Source: Terriglobia bacterium (GTDB taxonomy: Bacteria > Acidobacteriota > Terriglobia > Bryobacterales > Bryobacteraceae). Taken from it: 64,000 nucleotides of DNA. The notes under the pieces were generated by a model. The model saw only the letters and a program-made list of their open reading frames with translations. It ran no database searches and had not been told where the DNA came from. The translations under genes were made by a program, and so were the position numbers. Below, one piece after another: positions 22,212-35,477 of this stretch. Position 1 is the first letter of the stretch, and each line of letters opens with the position of its first letter. Location of the stretch: assembly GCA_020073615.1 (NCBI GenBank), contig JAIQEX010000010.1, positions 1 through 64,000 of the forward strand, written 5' to 3'.

Positions 22212-22439
22212 CTACACCTTCTCCTGTTCTTTGCGCCGCGCCGCCCAGTATTTCTTCATGCGGGCGGAAACATCCTGACGTTCCTTCAGGTCCATCGACT
22301 TTCGGCCTCGACGCTTGGTATCGTCCGACGCCGCCGATGGAGGTGCCGCCTTGTGCTGCAACCCCTCAAGCAGGGAGATGGCCTGCTCCAGGGTCGCCTT
22401 CTGCGCATATAGCTCGCGAATGACGTTTTCTAGATCCAT
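22212..22439 (-). CDS. Small coiled-coil hypothetical protein
   Basis: MDLENVIRELYAQKATLEQAISLLEGL...; plausible short ORF. Confidence 0.55.
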   Translation of the reverse strand: MDLENVIRELYAQKATLEQAISLLEGLQHKAAPPSAASDDTKRRGRKSMDLKERQDVSARMKKYWAARRKEQEKV

Positions 22440-22716
22440 GGCATTCAAAATTTAAAGACTGGCCCAAGATTCAAACGATCTTTTCCGTGCCGGGGAGCCC
22501 GGTATCAGTCCCAATTTCGTTCCGTAGCAACTAAGTTCGCTTCGTTCGTGATAGAAAGCGCAAGTCTAACATGCCGCGATGACGCAGTGAGCCAAAATTC
22601 GCCCAGAGTAAGGGGAAAACCTGAGTTTACGTTAGTTTACGTACAAACAGCTTCCGGGACGGCGACTTGATTAATGCAGTTAAGCAAGATAGCTGAATCA
22701 AACGGCCCGCCGCCCT

Positions 22717-25811: not shown

Positions 25812-26441
25812 ATGAGTGCCAAGGGTCCTATCACGGTCCTGGTGGTCGACGATCATCCTGTGGTGCGGGATGGCCTGAAGGCCATCATTTCTTCCGAGCC
25901 CGGCATGGAAGTGGTGGGCGACGTGGGCACCGCTGGCGAGGCAGTCGCGGCCTACCTCGTGTTGCGCCCCGCCATAGTGCTGATGGATCTGCTGCTGCCC
26001 GATTTCAGCGGCTCGGAAGCCATCCAACGCATCTGCCAGAGGTCGCCGAATGCCCAGATCATTGTCCTGACGACGGCCGATGGCGATGCCGAAATCTACC
26101 GCGCGCTCGAGGCCGGCGCCCGCGGATATCTGCTGAAGGACATGGTGAGGCGCGAGCTCATCCAGGCCATCCGCCAGGTCTGTGCCGGGCAGCGGTACAT
26201 CCCCGCGCAAGTGGGAGCGCGCATCGCCGAGAACCTTCCCCGGCCGGATATCACCGCGCGCGAGATCGAAGTGCTGCAACTGATCGCTTCCGGTTTTCGG
26301 AATAAAGAAATAGCGCACCGGCTAGGGGTCACCGAAGCCACCGTCAACGCCCACATCAAGCATTGCCTGGCGAAGCTCAGCGCCACCGACCGCACTCACG
26401 CCGTTATGGTGGCGCTGCGCCGCGGCATCATTCATCTGTAG
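25812..26441 (+). CDS. NarL/LuxR-family response regulator
   Basis: 'ITVLVVDDHPVVRDGLKAII'; 'DITAREIEVLQLIASGFRNKEIAHRLGVTEATVNAHIK'. Confidence 0.94.
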   Translation: MSAKGPITVLVVDDHPVVRDGLKAIISSEPGMEVVGDVGTAGEAVAAYLVLRPAIVLMDLLLPDFSGSEAIQRICQRSPNAQIIVLTTADGDAEIYRALEAGARGYLLKDMVRRELIQAIRQVCAGQRYIPAQVGARIAENLPRPDITAREIEVLQLIASGFRNKEIAHRLGVTEATVNAHIKHCLAKLSATDRTHAVMVALRRGIIHL

Positions 26442-26565: not shown

Positions 26566-27123
26566 ATGTTGAGACATACCCGCCTCAACAGGGGGCCGGA
26601 GGCGTTGCTATGGGCTCCACTGCCGTTTGCCGCCGCGCGATCGGGGCCGCCCCCGAGGACCAGCGGCGTACTGCCCCACATACAACTCGATCAGTGGCCG
26701 CCCCCTGCCATCGTTGCGCGCCTTATTGATCGCAGTCTCCAGTTTCCCCACGTGCGCGCGCGGCAGAGCCGGATGGCCTCCCCCGAGACGCAGGCCCTGT
26801 GGGTGTCCGACGAGCGCGCTCTCGGCCCCGCCGAGGCGTTCATCGACGGCCTCGAATTCTGCCATCTTCACGCGGCGCCGGAGGGCAGCCTCCATTTGAC
26901 GCTGCCGCGGGAGGTTCGCCCGCAAGTTCTGAAATTGGGCTGGGCCGAACTGCATCTGCTGGTCCGCGCCGGGTTCCTGCCGGAGTCGCTGGTGCTGGTC
27001 TATGCCCCACGGAACGACTCCGAGTTGGAGATCGCGCTGCGGCTGGTCCAGATTTCGTGCCAGTTCGCGCAGGGTGTCTATGACCGGTTGCGCTCGCCGC
27101 GGCGTGAGGCGATCCATGGGTAA
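26566..27123 (+). CDS. DUF5519/'luciferase'-domain family protein
   Basis: 'FCHLHAAPEGSLHLTLP...KLGWAELHLL...LVLVYAPRNDSELEIALRLVQIS'; 8-nt overlap with the downstream cyclase. Confidence 0.65.
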   Translation: MLRHTRLNRGPEALLWAPLPFAAARSGPPPRTSGVLPHIQLDQWPPPAIVARLIDRSLQFPHVRARQSRMASPETQALWVSDERALGPAEAFIDGLEFCHLHAAPEGSLHLTLPREVRPQVLKLGWAELHLLVRAGFLPESLVLVYAPRNDSELEIALRLVQISCQFAQGVYDRLRSPRREAIHG

Positions 27124-28978
27124 ATTGGCGGGCATTTTTTACTTCGATTTGCGGCCGGTCTCCCCGGAAGATCGCGATCGGGTTGGGCGGAGCCTCGATG
27201 GTCCGGAGCCCGCCGCTCTGGAGATCTACGGCGCTCCCGGACTTTTGATGGCATACGCCGCATCGCCCGATTCCCGGCGCGACCGCGGCGCCGGCTGTTG
27301 CTCGGCGGGCCACCGCGCGTGCACCTTTGACGGCCGGCTGGACAACCGCGCCGAGCTGCTTGCCAGGCTTGACGAAAACCGATCGCGGGCGCCCGCCAGC
27401 GCCGTTGCCCTCGCCATCCATGAGGCCGATGGCCCTGCGGGATTGGGCCGGCTCGTGGGCGACTGGAGCCTGGCCATTTGGAACGCGCGGAATCGGACCG
27501 TATCGCTCGCCAGCGACTACGCCGGCACCCGTCCGCTTTATTTCCATCGGACGGCCAGCCGCCTCATCTGGTCCTCGTCGCTCAAAGATATCGCCGAGTG
27601 GGCCCGCGCCGGAGACCTCGACGAAGACTACGCAGCCGCCTTCCTCAGCCGCGGCCTCGCTGCACATCGAACGCCGTATCGCGGCGTTCTCCCGGTCCCC
27701 GCGGGTTCCATCGTCAGCGTATCGCCCCAGCGGTTGGAGACGACCAAGTATTGGAGCCTTCCGGTCAGCCGGACCATCCACTATCGAGACGAGTCGCAAT
27801 ATGAAGAGCAACTGCGGGTGTTGTTTCAGGAAGCGGTTGCCGCCCGCCTCGACACCGCCGCGCCGGTCTGCGCCGAACTGAGCGGCGGCCTGGACTCGTC
27901 GTCGGTGGTCTCCATGGCCCACCGCTTGATTCAGGGCGGCAAGGTCCGAGCGCCCGGACTGGTCAGCTTCAGCTATCGCTCCGCCGGGTCTACCGACGAA
28001 CAGTTTTACCGCGCGGTGGAGCAGAGCTGTAACCTTCCGGCGGTCCATCTGGAAACCGGCGAATACCCCGCCACCTCCCCGGACTTCGCCGCCGCCGCGC
28101 CCCTGTTGTGGGGGCCGCGCCTGACCGAGGTGGCGCGCCGCATGGCGGCGGGCGGATCGCGTGTGTTCCTCACCGGCCAGCTTGGCGACCTGATGATGGG
28201 AAACTGGCTCGACGATTCCGAACAGGCCGGCGACTACCTGCGGCAGGGCCGGTTTTCGCAAGCCGTGCGCGAGGCTTTTGCCTGGAGCCATTCCCTGCGG
28301 GTCCCCGTCTATTCCATTCTCGGGCGCGCGCTCGGAGTGGCCTCTTCGGTCAACGCGGATATGGCGCGAAACGCGGCCGGCCACGCTGCTTATGGCGACT
28401 CCCTCAGCCCCGGCCTGAGCAGAATCGCCGCCCTTCACGAGCGCGGCCTCTCCGCACAGGACTGGCTGCGGCACGCGTTGCCGGCTCGCCGAAAACGGCT
28501 CAAGGCGCTCCATGAGGTTCTGCAATGCCGGGCCTTGCAATGTCCCGAACCCATGCAAGGCGTCGAGTACTGCCATCCGTTTCTCCACCGCCCGCTGGTG
28601 GAATTCATGCTGGCCATTCCGCCCGCGGCCGTCTGCCGGCCGGGCGAGCCCCGGCGCCTGATGCGCCGCGCCTTCGCCGGCATCGTTCCCGATCTGGTGC
28701 TTCGCCGCCGCTCCAAGGGAGGCTACGACGCCATGTTCCTGAACGCTCTCCGGCCGTGCGCCTCCGAGCTTCTGCGCCGTCCCGGAGAGATAGGTCTGGT
28801 GCAGCTTGGTTACGTGGACCGCCGCAGCGTTGAATTCCGCCTGCGCAGGCTGGTGGCGGGTCTGGAGTGCAATGAATCGCAGTTGCGCCACCTGATTCTG
28901 TTCGAATTCTGGCTGCGCAATCGAGAGCAGGCCGGCAGCGCCGCCGATGGGCGCGCCACGGCGCCGGCGGCGGCGTAG
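27116..28978 (+). CDS. Asparagine-synthase-like lasso peptide macrolactam synthetase (C protein)
   Basis: PP-loop 'CAELSGGLDSSSVVSMA'; N-terminus MGKLAGIF lacks the glutaminase Cys; start revised. Confidence 0.88.
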   Translation: MGKLAGIFYFDLRPVSPEDRDRVGRSLDGPEPAALEIYGAPGLLMAYAASPDSRRDRGAGCCSAGHRACTFDGRLDNRAELLARLDENRSRAPASAVALAIHEADGPAGLGRLVGDWSLAIWNARNRTVSLASDYAGTRPLYFHRTASRLIWSSSLKDIAEWARAGDLDEDYAAAFLSRGLAAHRTPYRGVLPVPAGSIVSVSPQRLETTKYWSLPVSRTIHYRDESQYEEQLRVLFQEAVAARLDTAAPVCAELSGGLDSSSVVSMAHRLIQGGKVRAPGLVSFSYRSAGSTDEQFYRAVEQSCNLPAVHLETGEYPATSPDFAAAAPLLWGPRLTEVARRMAAGGSRVFLTGQLGDLMMGNWLDDSEQAGDYLRQGRFSQAVREAFAWSHSLRVPVYSILGRALGVASSVNADMARNAAGHAAYGDSLSPGLSRIAALHERGLSAQDWLRHALPARRKRLKALHEVLQCRALQCPEPMQGVEYCHPFLHRPLVEFMLAIPPAAVCRPGEPRRLMRRAFAGIVPDLVLRRRSKGGYDAMFLNALRPCASELLRRPGEIGLVQLGYVDRRSVEFRLRRLVAGLECNESQLRHLILFEFWLRNREQAGSAADGRATAPAAA

Positions 28979-29110
28979 CGGTGGCGGTAGAACCCGGCGA
29001 TGGCGGCATCACCTGAAATGGGTACGAAACGATAAGAGAATTCGGGATTGTGGGGGATCGGAACATAACGTAGCCTCAGGGGGAGTTCAGCCCTGCAAAT
29101 TCGGAGGGTC

Positions 29111-29470
29111 ATGTTCACGTCATTTCGCCGGGCCATCCGGCACTTCCGCTACCGGCGCGCGGCGCAATCCGTGGCGCAGCCGAAACCGCCCGGGGAGGGT
29201 GTACCGATTGTCCCCGCGGAAGTCCGGGCGTCGACCGGCGGCGGCGCTCTATTGCTGCTCGACACCGGGCAGGGCCTTCTCTTCAAGTCCAACTCTACGG
29301 GCGCCCGTATCTGGCAGGGTCTGGTGGAGGGCAAATCCATGACGGCCGTTGCCCAACAATTGAGCGAGGAATATGGCATCGCGCCGGAGCGCACAGCAGG
29401 AGACATCGAACGCTTCCTGGCGGATCTCCGGGCCAACGGTCTGCTGACGGTTGCTCAGGGGAGCCGATGA
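29111..29470 (+). CDS. PqqD-like RiPP recognition element (lasso B1/E)
   Basis: 'GGGALLLLDTGQGLLFKSNSTGARIWQGLVEGKSMTAVAQQLSEEYGI...DIERFLADLRANGLL'. Confidence 0.88.
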   Translation: MFTSFRRAIRHFRYRRAAQSVAQPKPPGEGVPIVPAEVRASTGGGALLLLDTGQGLLFKSNSTGARIWQGLVEGKSMTAVAQQLSEEYGIAPERTAGDIERFLADLRANGLLTVAQGSR

Positions 29471-29856
29471 TCGCGCGCCTCTCCCGCAGCCTGTTGATCG
29501 CGCAAGCCCTCTGGCAACTGCTTCGCTATGACGTGGTGCTCAGAGCAGGGGGCTTCCGCCGCATTCATCGCGACCTGGGCCGGCGGCGCCCCAAGCCGGC
29601 GGGCGGCGCTCCCAGCCGGGAAGCGCGCATCTGCGAGGCCATGCGGTGGGCCCTTTCGTTGTACTGCAAGCCGGCCCTGTGTTTGCAGCGTGCGGTTGCC
29701 ACTGCTCGTCTGTTGCGGCGGCACGGCATGGAAGCGCACGTCGTGATCGGATACCGGCCCGAGCCGTTCTTCGGGCACGCCTGGGTCGAGATTGAGGGCC
29801 GGGTAGTGGACGATTCGCCGGCCTGGCAGCGCCTGCATGTTTTGGAGCGAATTTAG
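29467..29856 (+). CDS. Transglutaminase-like lasso leader peptidase (B2)
   Basis: Cys/His/Asp triad in 'KPALCLQRAVATARLLRRHG', 'FFGHAWVEIEGRVVDDSP'; 4-nt overlap with B1. Confidence 0.9.
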   Translation: MIARLSRSLLIAQALWQLLRYDVVLRAGGFRRIHRDLGRRRPKPAGGAPSREARICEAMRWALSLYCKPALCLQRAVATARLLRRHGMEAHVVIGYRPEPFFGHAWVEIEGRVVDDSPAWQRLHVLERI

Positions 29857-29874
29857 AAAGTGAAAAGGAGAAAC

Positions 29875-30027
29875 ATGATTCCGTACCAAGCGCCCGTGCT
29901 CGACAAAATCGGCAAAGCCGAGGAAGTGATCCGTGGCATCCTGTCCACCGGAACGGATATCGACGGACAGTCGTTCACCAACGATTTTGAGTTCCTGGAC
30001 GACCGCGACGATGCATCCGGCCGCTAG
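29875..30027 (+). CDS. Candidate lasso peptide precursor (A), 50 aa, absent from the ORF track
   Basis: RBS AAGGAG; MIPYQAPVLDKIGKAEEVIRGILSTGTDIDGQSFTNDFEFLDDRDDASGR; leader YxxPxLxxxG motif; core Gly1...Asp8; 18 nt after B2. Confidence 0.82.
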   Translation: MIPYQAPVLDKIGKAEEVIRGILSTGTDIDGQSFTNDFEFLDDRDDASGR

Positions 30028-30042
30028 CGCGAAGGGAAAACC

Positions 30043-30255
30043 ATGCCCCGCACCTCCCGAAAGCAAAAGCGTTCCGTGGGCCGCCCGCGGCGCCACGTTG
30101 AGCCCGACCAGATCAACAACCTCCGCGGCCAGGGTTTGAGTTTCCGGGAGATCGCGCAACAAACGGGGCTCGGCTACGGCACGGTGCGCAGAGTCCTCCT
30201 GAGAAGCGGTTCGTCTTCCCCGGAGACCGGCCCATCCGGTAACGCAGAATCATAG
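30043..30255 (+). CDS. Small helix-turn-helix protein resembling the C-terminal HTH of serine recombinases
   Basis: 'VGRPRRHVEPDQINNLRGQGLSFREIAQQTGLGYGTVRRVL'; 15 nt after the precursor. Confidence 0.65.
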   Translation: MPRTSRKQKRSVGRPRRHVEPDQINNLRGQGLSFREIAQQTGLGYGTVRRVLLRSGSSSPETGPSGNAES

Positions 30256-30302: not shown

Positions 30303-30926
30303 TTGACGGGAGGTGGTCCGTTGCAGGTTGCGCCCAACGAATTGCGCCAGTATTACTCGTCCCTCTCCGACGAGATGCTTCTGGAGATCGATCCGGCCGA
30401 TCTCACGGATGCTGCGCGGCAATGCTACCAGAGCGAGTTTGCGAAAAGGGGTCTGTCGCCGGACGCCGCGCCCCCACCGGCGGCGGATGAGCATGCAGAG
30501 GCAGGCTTGGAGGTGGAACCCGATTGGCTGGAGCATGCCGCCTGCCCGTGCTCCTTCACGTCAGTCCCGGGCTCAAACCACGCACCCGATGCGGAGCGCG
30601 CGCGAGAGGTTTTGCTGGCTGCCGGAATTCCCTGCCATCTCTCCGCGATTTCGCCCGACCCGCGGAATGAAGACTCTCCACGCTTCGAGGAATACCGCGT
30701 GCTGGTTCCGGCCTCGCTCAACCTCAAAGCCATAAGCGTGCTCGACCAGGAGATCTTCAACGCGGATCTCGAGGCCGATTGGCGAACGCATTTTGCGGAC
30801 CTGCCGGATGAGGACCTCCGCGCGCTCCATCCGGAAGTCATCTGCGCCGGTCTGTTGGACCGCGTGGAGCGCCTGACCCGGGCCTATAACGACGAGATCG
30901 CGCGGCGAAGGGCGGAACGGGCGTAA
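30303..30926 (+). CDS. Hypothetical protein, possibly DUF2007-like central region (start uncertain, maybe TTG 30321)
   Basis: Coherent ORF with 'FTSVPGSNHAPDAERAREVLLAAGIPCHLS'. Confidence 0.6.
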   Translation: MTGGGPLQVAPNELRQYYSSLSDEMLLEIDPADLTDAARQCYQSEFAKRGLSPDAAPPPAADEHAEAGLEVEPDWLEHAACPCSFTSVPGSNHAPDAERAREVLLAAGIPCHLSAISPDPRNEDSPRFEEYRVLVPASLNLKAISVLDQEIFNADLEADWRTHFADLPDEDLRALHPEVICAGLLDRVERLTRAYNDEIARRRAERA

Positions 30927-30947: not shown

Positions 30948-31265
30948 GTGCGGCAGTTTGCCGTACAATCATATGAGAGTCAGGGAGCAGTGCCCACGAT
31001 GCCAAAGCTGGAGCGATTAGAGGCCCGCGTTACGAACCGGCAAAAACGCCTGATCGAACGCGCCGCGAACCTGGAAGGGCGCTCCATTACCGATTTTGTG
31101 GTGGCTGTGACGCAAGCTGCAGCCAGGCAGGTGGTTGAGGAGCATGAGATCTTAAAGCTCACGGCCAAGGACCGCGAGGTGTTCGTGGATGCGTTGCTGC
31201 ACCCGGCCGAGCCTAACGCCAGGCTCCGCGAAGCCGTCCGGCGAAACCACCGCCGCCTCAGGTAG
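30948..31265 (+). CDS. DUF1778-type antitoxin (TacA-like; start uncertain)
   Basis: 'LEARVTNRQKRLIERAANLEGRSITDFVVAVTQAAAR'. Confidence 0.82.
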   Translation: MRQFAVQSYESQGAVPTMPKLERLEARVTNRQKRLIERAANLEGRSITDFVVAVTQAAARQVVEEHEILKLTAKDREVFVDALLHPAEPNARLREAVRRNHRRLR

Positions 31266-31274
31266 CAGGTCGAC

Positions 31275-31790
31275 GTGGAAGCGTTCCAACGAGCCATAGA
31301 GCCATTCCAAAAGCATCGCCACTCCAGAGACGACTTTTCCTGTGAAGTAGAATCGTTGGAGCGGTATTTTAAGACCCAGGCGGCTCAAGAGGTCGCGAAA
31401 AAGGTTGCCGCGGTCTTCGTACTCGCTGAAGGCCGCACGGTCATCGGCTATTACACGCTCTCGAGTTACACCATCGATGGCGGCGAATTGCCGGATGAAG
31501 TTGCGAAACACCTGCCGAACTATCCGAAGTTGCCGGCCATTCTGATTGGCCGGCTGGCCCGCGACAAGAAGTATGCCCGTCAAGGAGTGGGCGAAACACT
31601 GCTGGTGGACGCGTTGCGGCGAAGCCTGGAAAACACCGCAAGAGTCGGCGCCGTCGCGGTGGTTGTGGAAGCAGAAAACGAAAAAGCTCGCAAGTTCTAC
31701 CTCGACTACGGGTTCATCCCGTTCCCCGGCCATCGGGACAAGCTGTTCATGCCGATGGGGACCATACAGAAGACTTTTTCGCCGGTCTGA
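31275..31790 (+). CDS. GNAT acetyltransferase toxin (TacT-like)
   Basis: 'LPAILIGRLARDKKYARQGVGETLLVDAL...VVVEAENEKARKFYLDYGFIPF'; paired with DUF1778. Confidence 0.85.
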   Translation: MEAFQRAIEPFQKHRHSRDDFSCEVESLERYFKTQAAQEVAKKVAAVFVLAEGRTVIGYYTLSSYTIDGGELPDEVAKHLPNYPKLPAILIGRLARDKKYARQGVGETLLVDALRRSLENTARVGAVAVVVEAENEKARKFYLDYGFIPFPGHRDKLFMPMGTIQKTFSPV

Positions 31791-33527: not shown

Positions 33528-35477
33528 CTACCGCAAATTCTCGTTGAACCACGCGATCATCCGCACCAGGACGTCGCGCTGGTGCTCCGCCGTGTGGAAC
33601 ACGTGTCCTTCGTCGGGATACACGACCATCTGCGTCTTCACTCCGAGGGTCTTGAGGGCATGCCAAAACTCGTAGGATTGGGGCGGCGGGCACTCGCCGT
33701 CGCGGTCGCCCACGACGACGAGCGTCGGGGTCTTCACGCGCTTGATGAAGTTGATGGCGGAGCTCTTGGCGTAGACCGCGGGGTCGTCGTAGACTGACGC
33801 GCCGAAGTACGGGATCATCCACTGGTCGATGGCGTTCTCGCCGTAATAACTCTGCCAGTTGGCGATGCCCGCCCCGGCCATGGCCGCGCGGAAGCGGCCG
33901 GTCTGCGTCACCGCCCACATGGTCATGAAGCCGCCGTAGCTCCAACCCGTGAGACCGACGCGATTGGCGTCCACCGGTGCGGTGCGGATGGCTTCCTCGA
34001 CGCCCGCCAGGATGTCGCGCAGATCGCCGCCGCCAAAATCGGCCACGTTGGCGAGGGCAAACTTTTCGCCTTGCCCATAGCTGCCGCGCGGGTTCGGCAG
34101 CAGCACGAAGTATCCCTGCTGCGAAAGCAGCGTGGGGTTGAACCCGGGCCGCGGCCACGCCGGCTTCAGCGAGGAGGCCGGCCCGCCGTGCACCGCCACC
34201 ACCATGGGGTACTTGCGGTCCGGCGCGAAATCGCTGGGATAGAGCAGCCACCCCTGCACGCGAAAGCCGTCGCTCGTCCAGTGCAGGCTCTTGGCGTCTC
34301 CCCACAACGGCCGGCGCGCGCTGTTTTCGTGGGTCGCCTGTTTCCATTCGCCGATCGCCCCCGCCCAGATCTCCGGCGGCTGGCGCCACGAGTTGCGGAT
34401 CACCGCGCTGGCCTTCGCGTCCGCGGTCATCGAGATGCCGCTATCGTCGAAGGCCGGGTTGATGCTCTCCTCGCCTTGCCACAGCCGCTCGGCCTGGCCG
34501 GTGGCCGGGTCCAGGCGCGAAATGGCGCTGCCGCCGTCGTAGTGTTCAGTGAAGTAGAGTTGCTTCGCCTGCCGCGGCCAGGCGATATTGCTCGCCGAAG
34601 ACGCCATCCCCGGAGTGAGATTGCGCGCTTCGCCGCCGCCCGCGGGCACCGCAAAGATGTCGCCTCCGGTCGATCCTTCGTCGCTCATCAGGCCGCCGAT
34701 GAAGACGATCGACCGGCCATCGGGGGACCAGCGCGGCGCCGCGATCTGCTGCTGGACGCCGGGCTTGTAGATGGCCTTCATCTCGCCGGCCGCGGCGGAA
34801 AGGGTGTACAGTTGCGCGATCCACCAGTTATCGTCGCCCGCGCCCGCCGCGGCCGTGGCGGCGAAGGTCCGCCCGTCGGGCGACCACTCGTACTCGTACA
34901 CGTACATGTCCCGGGGCGAAAGTTGACGCACCGCGCCGGTGGCCGCGTCCACCACCGTCAGGCGCTGTTCGTAGATCTTCGATTCCAGGACGCCCGCATC
35001 CGGCGGCACCGGATCGAGCGGTCCCGCGCGGCGGGGCAGATCCTCAGTAAACAGGATGGCCACCTGCTTTCCATCCGGCGACCAGCGCGGGTCGTCCAGC
35101 AGGCCCTTGAGATGGGTGAGTTGGCGCGCGGGTCCGCCCTCGGCCGCGGCGATATAAAGCTGGAGCTGCTCCTTCTTCTCCCGGTCGGAAAGGAAGGCGA
35201 TCTGCTTCCCGTCGGGCGACCAGGCCACGCCGTGCTCGTCATAGGAGGCCTTGCCATCGCCCGCCGAAATCCGCCGCCGCGGGGCGAGGTAAATGGCGGA
35301 CTTGCCCTCCGCCAGCGCCTCCACGTACGCCACGTGCGCGCCCTCGGGAGAGATCCTGGCTTCGAGGAACTGCCGCGTGGCGGCGATTTCCGCGAGCGCG
35401 GGCTCGACCGGCGTTGCGGGTTGCGCGTGAAGCCCCCAGACCGCAATTAGTGCCGTGCAAAGGAAACGAACGTTCAT
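33528..35477 (-). CDS. S9-family prolyl oligopeptidase/acylaminoacyl peptidase
   Basis: TolB/WD40-like propeller, 'GLTGWSYGGFMTMWA' nucleophile motif, 'PDEGHVF'. Confidence 0.92.
   Translation of the reverse strand: MNVRFLCTALIAVWGLHAQPATPVEPALAEIAATRQFLEARISPEGAHVAYVEALAEGKSAIYLAPRRRISAGDGKASYDEHGVAWSPDGKQIAFLSDREKKEQLQLYIAAAEGGPARQLTHLKGLLDDPRWSPDGKQVAILFTEDLPRRAGPLDPVPPDAGVLESKIYEQRLTVVDAATGAVRQLSPRDMYVYEYEWSPDGRTFAATAAAGAGDDNWWIAQLYTLSAAAGEMKAIYKPGVQQQIAAPRWSPDGRSIVFIGGLMSDEGSTGGDIFAVPAGGGEARNLTPGMASSASNIAWPRQAKQLYFTEHYDGGSAISRLDPATGQAERLWQGEESINPAFDDSGISMTADAKASAVIRNSWRQPPEIWAGAIGEWKQATHENSARRPLWGDAKSLHWTSDGFRVQGWLLYPSDFAPDRKYPMVVAVHGGPASSLKPAWPRPGFNPTLLSQQGYFVLLPNPRGSYGQGEKFALANVADFGGGDLRDILAGVEEAIRTAPVDANRVGLTGWSYGGFMTMWAVTQTGRFRAAMAGAGIANWQSYYGENAIDQWMIPYFGASVYDDPAVYAKSSAINFIKRVKTPTLVVVGDRDGECPPPQSYEFWHALKTLGVKTQMVVYPDEGHVFHTAEHQRDVLVRMIAWFNENLR

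Follow-up and report, generated by a model that had tools for sequence, protein, structure and literature searches.

A lasso-peptide biosynthetic locus in a Bryobacteraceae bacterium that probably carries its own two-component switch

What use does a bacterium have for a lasso-peptide cluster that shows neither exporter nor isopeptidase and that carries its precursor gene behind the genes for leader recognition and removal? The question is raised by a 64-kb stretch of DNA (the window) from the soil acidobacterium Terriglobia bacterium GCA_020073615.1, contig JAIQEX010000010.1, a host genome of 6.96 Mb that is 98% complete; its closest titled relative is a MAG of the Bryobacteraceae (Acidobacteriota). 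An initial annotation described there a lasso-type RiPP operon of unusual order. I compared the locus with 237 genomes of the family (Bryobacteraceae), most of them draft assemblies. Its features, with the gene arrangements found in relatives, are given in Table 1.

Table 1. Features of the lasso locus in the window, and arrangement of related loci.
Feature	Position	Strand	Evidence or remark
Sensor histidine kinase, 998 aa	22717-25713	-	Signal-like N-terminal segment, Reg_prop repeats, Y_Y_Y, HisKA_3, HATPase_c (Pfam)
NarL/LuxR-type response regulator, 209 aa	25812-26441	+	Response_reg + GerE; divergent from kinase
Candidate operator, perfect 16-bp palindrome TTACCAGATTTGGTAA	26490-26505	+	Upstream of DUF5519-C
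DUF5519 (PF17648 "Luciferase domain") protein, 185 aa	26566-27123	+	Pfam E 2e-18
Lasso cyclase C, AsnB-like	27116-28978	+	Asn_synthase (PF00733, E 4e-31) + GATase_7
B1, PqqD-type RiPP recognition element	29111-29470	+	PF05402 E 6e-15; NF033530 E 9e-13, under its cut-off
B2, transglutaminase-like leader peptidase	29467-29856	+	Transglut_core3; NF033537 lasso B2, above curated cut-off
Lasso precursor A	29875-30027	+	Leader MIPYQAPVLDKIGKAEEVIR, predicted core GILSTGTDIDGQSFTNDFEFLDDRDDASGR; AGGAG 4 nt 5' of ATG
Small HTH protein, 70 aa	30043-30255	+	HTH_58 E 6e-6
Window genus			Kinase (antisense), regulator, DUF5519-C-B1-B2-A-HTH
G030, G061, G257, G195 (C416)			DUF5519-C-[kinase, antisense]-B1-B2-A + regulator
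G175			DUF5519-C-[kinase, antisense]-B1-B2, order as G030, up to contig end in B2
G230			[kinase, divergent]-B2-A-regulator-DUF5519-C-ABC exporter

The coordinates and the Pfam and NCBIfam matches bear out the order first described, DUF5519, C, B1, B2, A, HTH, all on the plus strand, with overlaps of 8 nt between DUF5519 and C and of 4 nt between B1 and B2; 132 nt (28979-29110) lie between C and B1. The assignment to the lasso type is upheld as well, by the family models, the leader pattern and Gly1/Asp8. Elements by which a lasso cluster is recognized are present: B1 and B2, an AsnB-like C with its ATP-pyrophosphatase motif, and a YxxPxL leader together with Gly1 and an Asp at position 8, inside the 7-9 range in which lasso precursors have Asp or Glu. 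By its gene content and its precursor, the locus belongs to the lasso family. C shares 45-54% identity with its counterparts in five relatives, with the LSGGLDSS motif (SGGLDSSS) invariant, and B2 is the sole Transglut_core3 match in the host genome. The HTH protein is restricted to the genus (63% identical in L008, the second genome of the genus, and not found at the remaining loci). A scan for consensus promoters and terminators gave no signal above chance.

Seven precursors could be aligned, from six genera, all Bryobacteraceae (one has a run of 10 N in its leader). In the numbering of the window's A, the residues Met1, Tyr4, Leu9, Gly13, Gly21, Gly26, Asp28, Asp30 and Phe40 are invariant in all seven. 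With Gly21 set as +1, the leader pattern falls into place as Tyr(-17), Pro(-14), Leu(-12) and Ile/Val(-2), and Asp28 becomes +8, so that Gly1, Gly6, Asp8 and Asp10 of the core are invariant along with Tyr(-17). The window's own leader keeps Tyr(-17), Pro(-14) and Leu(-12) and has Ile(-2). None of the seven shows the usual, not obligatory, Thr(-2); all have Ile or Val there, an exception that has been experimentally validated (PMC10368454). The predicted core is therefore GILSTGTDIDGQSFTNDFEFLDDRDDASGR, with a ring from Gly1 to Asp8. A core starting at a later Gly (GQSFTNDFE, with a Gly1-Glu9 ring) was also considered and rejected, for it would put the leader Tyr at -27, its position 9 is Gln in L032 and its Gly is Ala in L031, while Gly21 and Asp28 are invariant and restore Tyr(-17) and Ile(-2). 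The core has 8 acidic and 2 basic residues (5-11 and 0-2, respectively, in the other cores). Substitutions that separate the leaders of the genus's two genomes are mostly synonymous (dN 0.05, dS 0.87), and their cores do not differ at residues 6-26. A further lasso precursor of the family, at L035 2604 (minus strand), has the core GTGAWKHDADEETFLE with Ile(-2) and Asp8 and is possibly paeninodin-like.

A search with the window's B2 gave eight strong matches (E < 1e-27) in seven other genomes of the family, plus G175, whose B2 is interrupted by a contig end. L008 has the same C-B1-B2-A-HTH order, its DNA 83-85% identical, and clusters with DUF5519 occur in six other genera as well; the organization of the locus is therefore beyond chance. 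In genome G001 the locus is broken between two contigs, with ends at window positions 26440 and 27137, and its DUF5519 gene is unseen because it falls into the gap between them. At G230 (L028, C470 7054-7742) no B1 was detectable within 12.8 kb, with B2, A, C, DUF5519, kinase, regulator and ABC exporter all present, so the gene set is incomplete at some loci. Two further loci, L010 (in G031) and L029 (in G195, C253), have the order B1-B2-C and neither DUF5519 nor this kinase in the available sequence. This second lasso type lies close to large outer-membrane barrels with a carboxypeptidase-regulatory domain.

Among the clusters with DUF5519, A follows B2 wherever both are visible. This position of A is a family trait of the DUF5519-type clusters; the side-by-side placement of C and B1 is no such trait. 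Five other genera have the kinase gene, in antisense orientation, between C and B1, hence DUF5519-C and B1-B2-A cannot be one uninterrupted operon there. The claim of one operon may hold in the window and does not extend to those genera, and the single operon is probably not ancestral, to judge from these arrangements. Nor is the position of A as unusual as had been supposed, since two acidobacterial metagenomic clusters, BGCs 482.1 and 44.1, are published with A last (PMC9064862). In L008 the C-B1 gap holds a degenerate GCCGCGTA/GTAGCCGCC tandem array (1832-2028); the window's gap has no repeat.

The DUF5519 protein has relatives in 7 of the 237 genomes, each beside a lasso C, and the order-level search gave the same result. 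Its gene neighbors that of C in every one of the seven clusters that show both, so the protein is probably a partner of C, and this linkage suggests that it may act as a partner or tailoring factor of the cyclase. It does not serve as a general lasso marker: eight PF17648 loci examined elsewhere in the phylum have no lasso genes nearby. Its AlphaFold2 model is fairly confident (pLDDT 86). The best fold match in the PDB is weak, 3h9x (Foldseek E 0.017, 12% identity, probability 0.98, TM-score 0.61 on the target), which is PSPTO_3016, presumably of the MmcQ/YjbR family. Going by the model, DUF5519 might be a YjbR-like accessory protein. A sequence search of the PDB found no solved DUF5519 structure, a literature search for DUF5519 found no papers, and the name "Luciferase domain" should not be taken as the protein's activity.

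Two further genes lie just upstream of those first described. When the kinase was searched against the 237 genomes, its top 8 matches were exactly the 8 genomes with a DUF5519-type lasso cluster, with scores of 763-2277 bits and (self aside) identities of 43-78%; the next match stood at 644 bits and 39%. In a tree of 31 kinases the eight lasso-linked ones lie on one side of a branch with support 100/100, and the closest paralogue inside the host genome is 34% identical. The kinase gene has been kept with the locus in eight genomes although its place differs: it may be upstream, next to B2, or between C and B1. The regulator is 64-70% identical to those at L009, L028, L030, L031 and L032. Both genes, the one for the kinase and the one for the regulator, are therefore part of the lasso locus. 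The boundaries first drawn, 26566-30255, rightly took in six genes and left out these two, which co-segregate with the cluster. Co-inheritance amounts to linkage, and that the kinase controls the cluster is a proposal.

The proposal may have its DNA site in the palindrome TTACCAGATTTGGTAA, a putative binding site of the regulator. It is the sole match in the window at up to 2 mismatches (0.34 expected), and a similar element, TAGCAGATTGGG, lies 24 bp downstream of it. Among the loci fetched, the palindrome's core TAYCAGATTTGG is found only in the window, L009 and L031, which belong to three genera, and always upstream of DUF5519.

These observations are probably best explained by a locus for lasso-peptide biosynthesis that has a two-component switch of its own. 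The reading is supported by the family assignments, the leader spacing, Gly1 and Asp8 in seven precursors, the kinase clade, the linkage of DUF5519 with C and the recurring candidate operator. By homology, B1 would bind the YxxPxL leader, B2, making use of Ile(-2), would cleave behind Arg(-1), and C would join the amine of Gly1 to the side chain of Asp8. The predicted product is a very acidic lasso of 30 residues, of about 3245.4 Da (monoisotopic, unmodified). The propeller-type histidine kinase would sense a signal, probably in the periplasm, and the NarL-type regulator would drive DUF5519-C via TTACCAGATTTGGTAA, and perhaps B1-B2-A too. The peptide would either be exported by a housekeeping exporter or not be exported. 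Because a sensor-and-switch pair is co-inherited with the lasso genes, the peptide is probably made on demand, when a signal is sensed.

A more adventurous version, attractive though I consider it doubtful, has the kinase act as receptor of the acidic lasso peptide that the locus itself encodes. The peptide would then be a self-inducing signal between cells, or the reporter of a bound ligand such as a metal, and not an antibiotic, and DUF5519 would be a new type of accessory protein acting with C.

The locus might, on the other hand, be a lasso cluster of the ordinary kind, with a dedicated exporter D that has been lost or relocated, its kinase and regulator being linked neighbors that serve an unrelated response. 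The initial annotation saw no transporter nearby. This stands for the window, as tblastn with the exporter of G230 as query found no match within 64 kb. It does not stand as a fixed trait: G230 carries, directly behind C and overlapping its stop codon by 4 nt, a gene for an ABC_membrane + ABC_tran protein. A linked exporter is thus optional in this type of cluster. The gene in G230 speaks for loss or relocation, as does the presence in the host genome of at least six other ABC exporters, one of them on the same contig outside the window (C127:70051-71550). A genome-wide search for a matching transporter thus finds candidates, all of them generic; the best is only 33% identical to the exporter of G230. 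The one on the same contig is 31% identical to it and is missing at the other DUF5519-type loci, so it neither qualifies as the cluster's exporter nor represents a transporter conserved in synteny just outside the region. Furthermore, no exporter was found around the clusters of G030, G061, G257 and G195, nor in the sequenced part of that of G175, which argues against a single recent loss, and the retention of a kinase gene that has moved about within the locus argues against its being a mere neighbor. I regard this explanation as unlikely.

Less likely still, the product could be a macrolactam RiPP that is no threaded lasso, an unthreaded ring for instance. Three features lend themselves to this idea. 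C matches the curated cyclase models only distantly (the best NCBIfam model is indeed the lasso cyclase NF033535, yet at 188 bits, far below the curated cut-off of 525), the acidic tail is long, at 22 residues, and most of the precursors score slightly under the cut-off of the lasso leader models. The leader spacing, Gly1, Asp8, B1 and B2 nonetheless all fit lasso rules, and the precursor of G230 exceeds the curated leader cut-off.

No known isopeptidase was recognized in the locus. That the S9 peptidase 3.5 kb downstream of A (33528-35477) fills the role, making this an isopeptidase-type cluster and characteristically exporter-less, is very improbable: it is of the same broad family (PD40 + Peptidase_S9), and known isopeptidase lasso clusters nearly all lack exporters (PMC9266682), but none of its best 60 PDB matches carries the name of a lasso isopeptidase (S9 peptidases and acylamino-acid-releasing enzymes rank first), and related lasso loci have no copy of it except a distant one in L038.

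How does the locus, read as a lasso cluster with its own switch, compare with known systems? It has in common with bsf of Bradymonas sediminis, whose precursor BsfA has been studied experimentally, and with predicted Acidobacteriaceae precursors (PMC10368454) the YxxPxL motif at -17 to -12 and Ile/Val(-2), and with the bsf type also the split B1/B2 and the Gly1-Asp8 ring, here a predicted one; D is absent from mmv (Bradymonadales), a relative of bsf. All Ile/Val(-2) clusters of that paper have a kinase or phosphotransferase. In the bsf type this is an HPr-kinase-like or other phosphotransferase, none of which was recognized by Pfam in the genes of the window's cluster that were scanned; the histidine kinase is of a different type. 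The paper mentions neither DUF5519 nor a histidine kinase. Among acidobacterial metagenomic clusters, PMC9064862 gives the orders B1-kinase-B2-C-A1-A2 for BGC 482.1 and D1-D2-B1-B2-C-A for 44.1. As in the window, B1 and B2 are split in these two and in 40.1, and no exporter is listed there for 40.1 or 482.1; unlike the window, the tables examined for the three have no DUF5519 or two-component genes.

Clusters of the siamycin family (humidimycin hum and MS-271 msl; PMC7168211) resemble the window in that they encode a histidine kinase and, in their case, two response regulators; expression of these genes altered yield. They differ in being actinobacterial and in having several transporters, disulfide oxidoreductases and a Cys1-Asp9 ring. 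Proteobacterial isopeptidase-type clusters (astexin; PMC9266682) are, like the window, without an ABC exporter; they have an isopeptidase, a GntR regulator, a TonB transporter and a sigma/anti-sigma pair, none of which was recognized in the window's locus. The rare Ile(-2) leader and the A-last order have already been described for acidobacterial lassos. As far as these papers show, the novelty lies in a dedicated propeller-type two-component system and a PF17648 protein being stably associated with the locus, and in the combination of this with the lack of a phosphotransferase, of a recognized isopeptidase and usually of an exporter.

A sensor kinase kept in eight genomes of seven genera offers a handle on the roles of exporter-less lasso clusters. 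Once the signal it senses and the targets of the regulator are found, the role of the peptide becomes testable. The comparison has also identified a lasso-linked branch of PF17648.

Some neighboring genes deserve mention. The HTH gene is directly followed, at 30303-30926, by one for a 207-aa protein that matches no family and shares 86% identity with its counterpart in the sister genome. A TacA1-type antitoxin (30948-31265) and a GNAT-domain protein (31275-31790), encoded shortly downstream of the lasso locus, are likely a TacAT toxin-antitoxin pair. A small conserved protein (RGRKSM...MKKYWA) with no Pfam match lies near three lasso loci (window 22212-22448, L009 11591-11812 and L032 10418-10669) and may simply be common in Acidobacteria.
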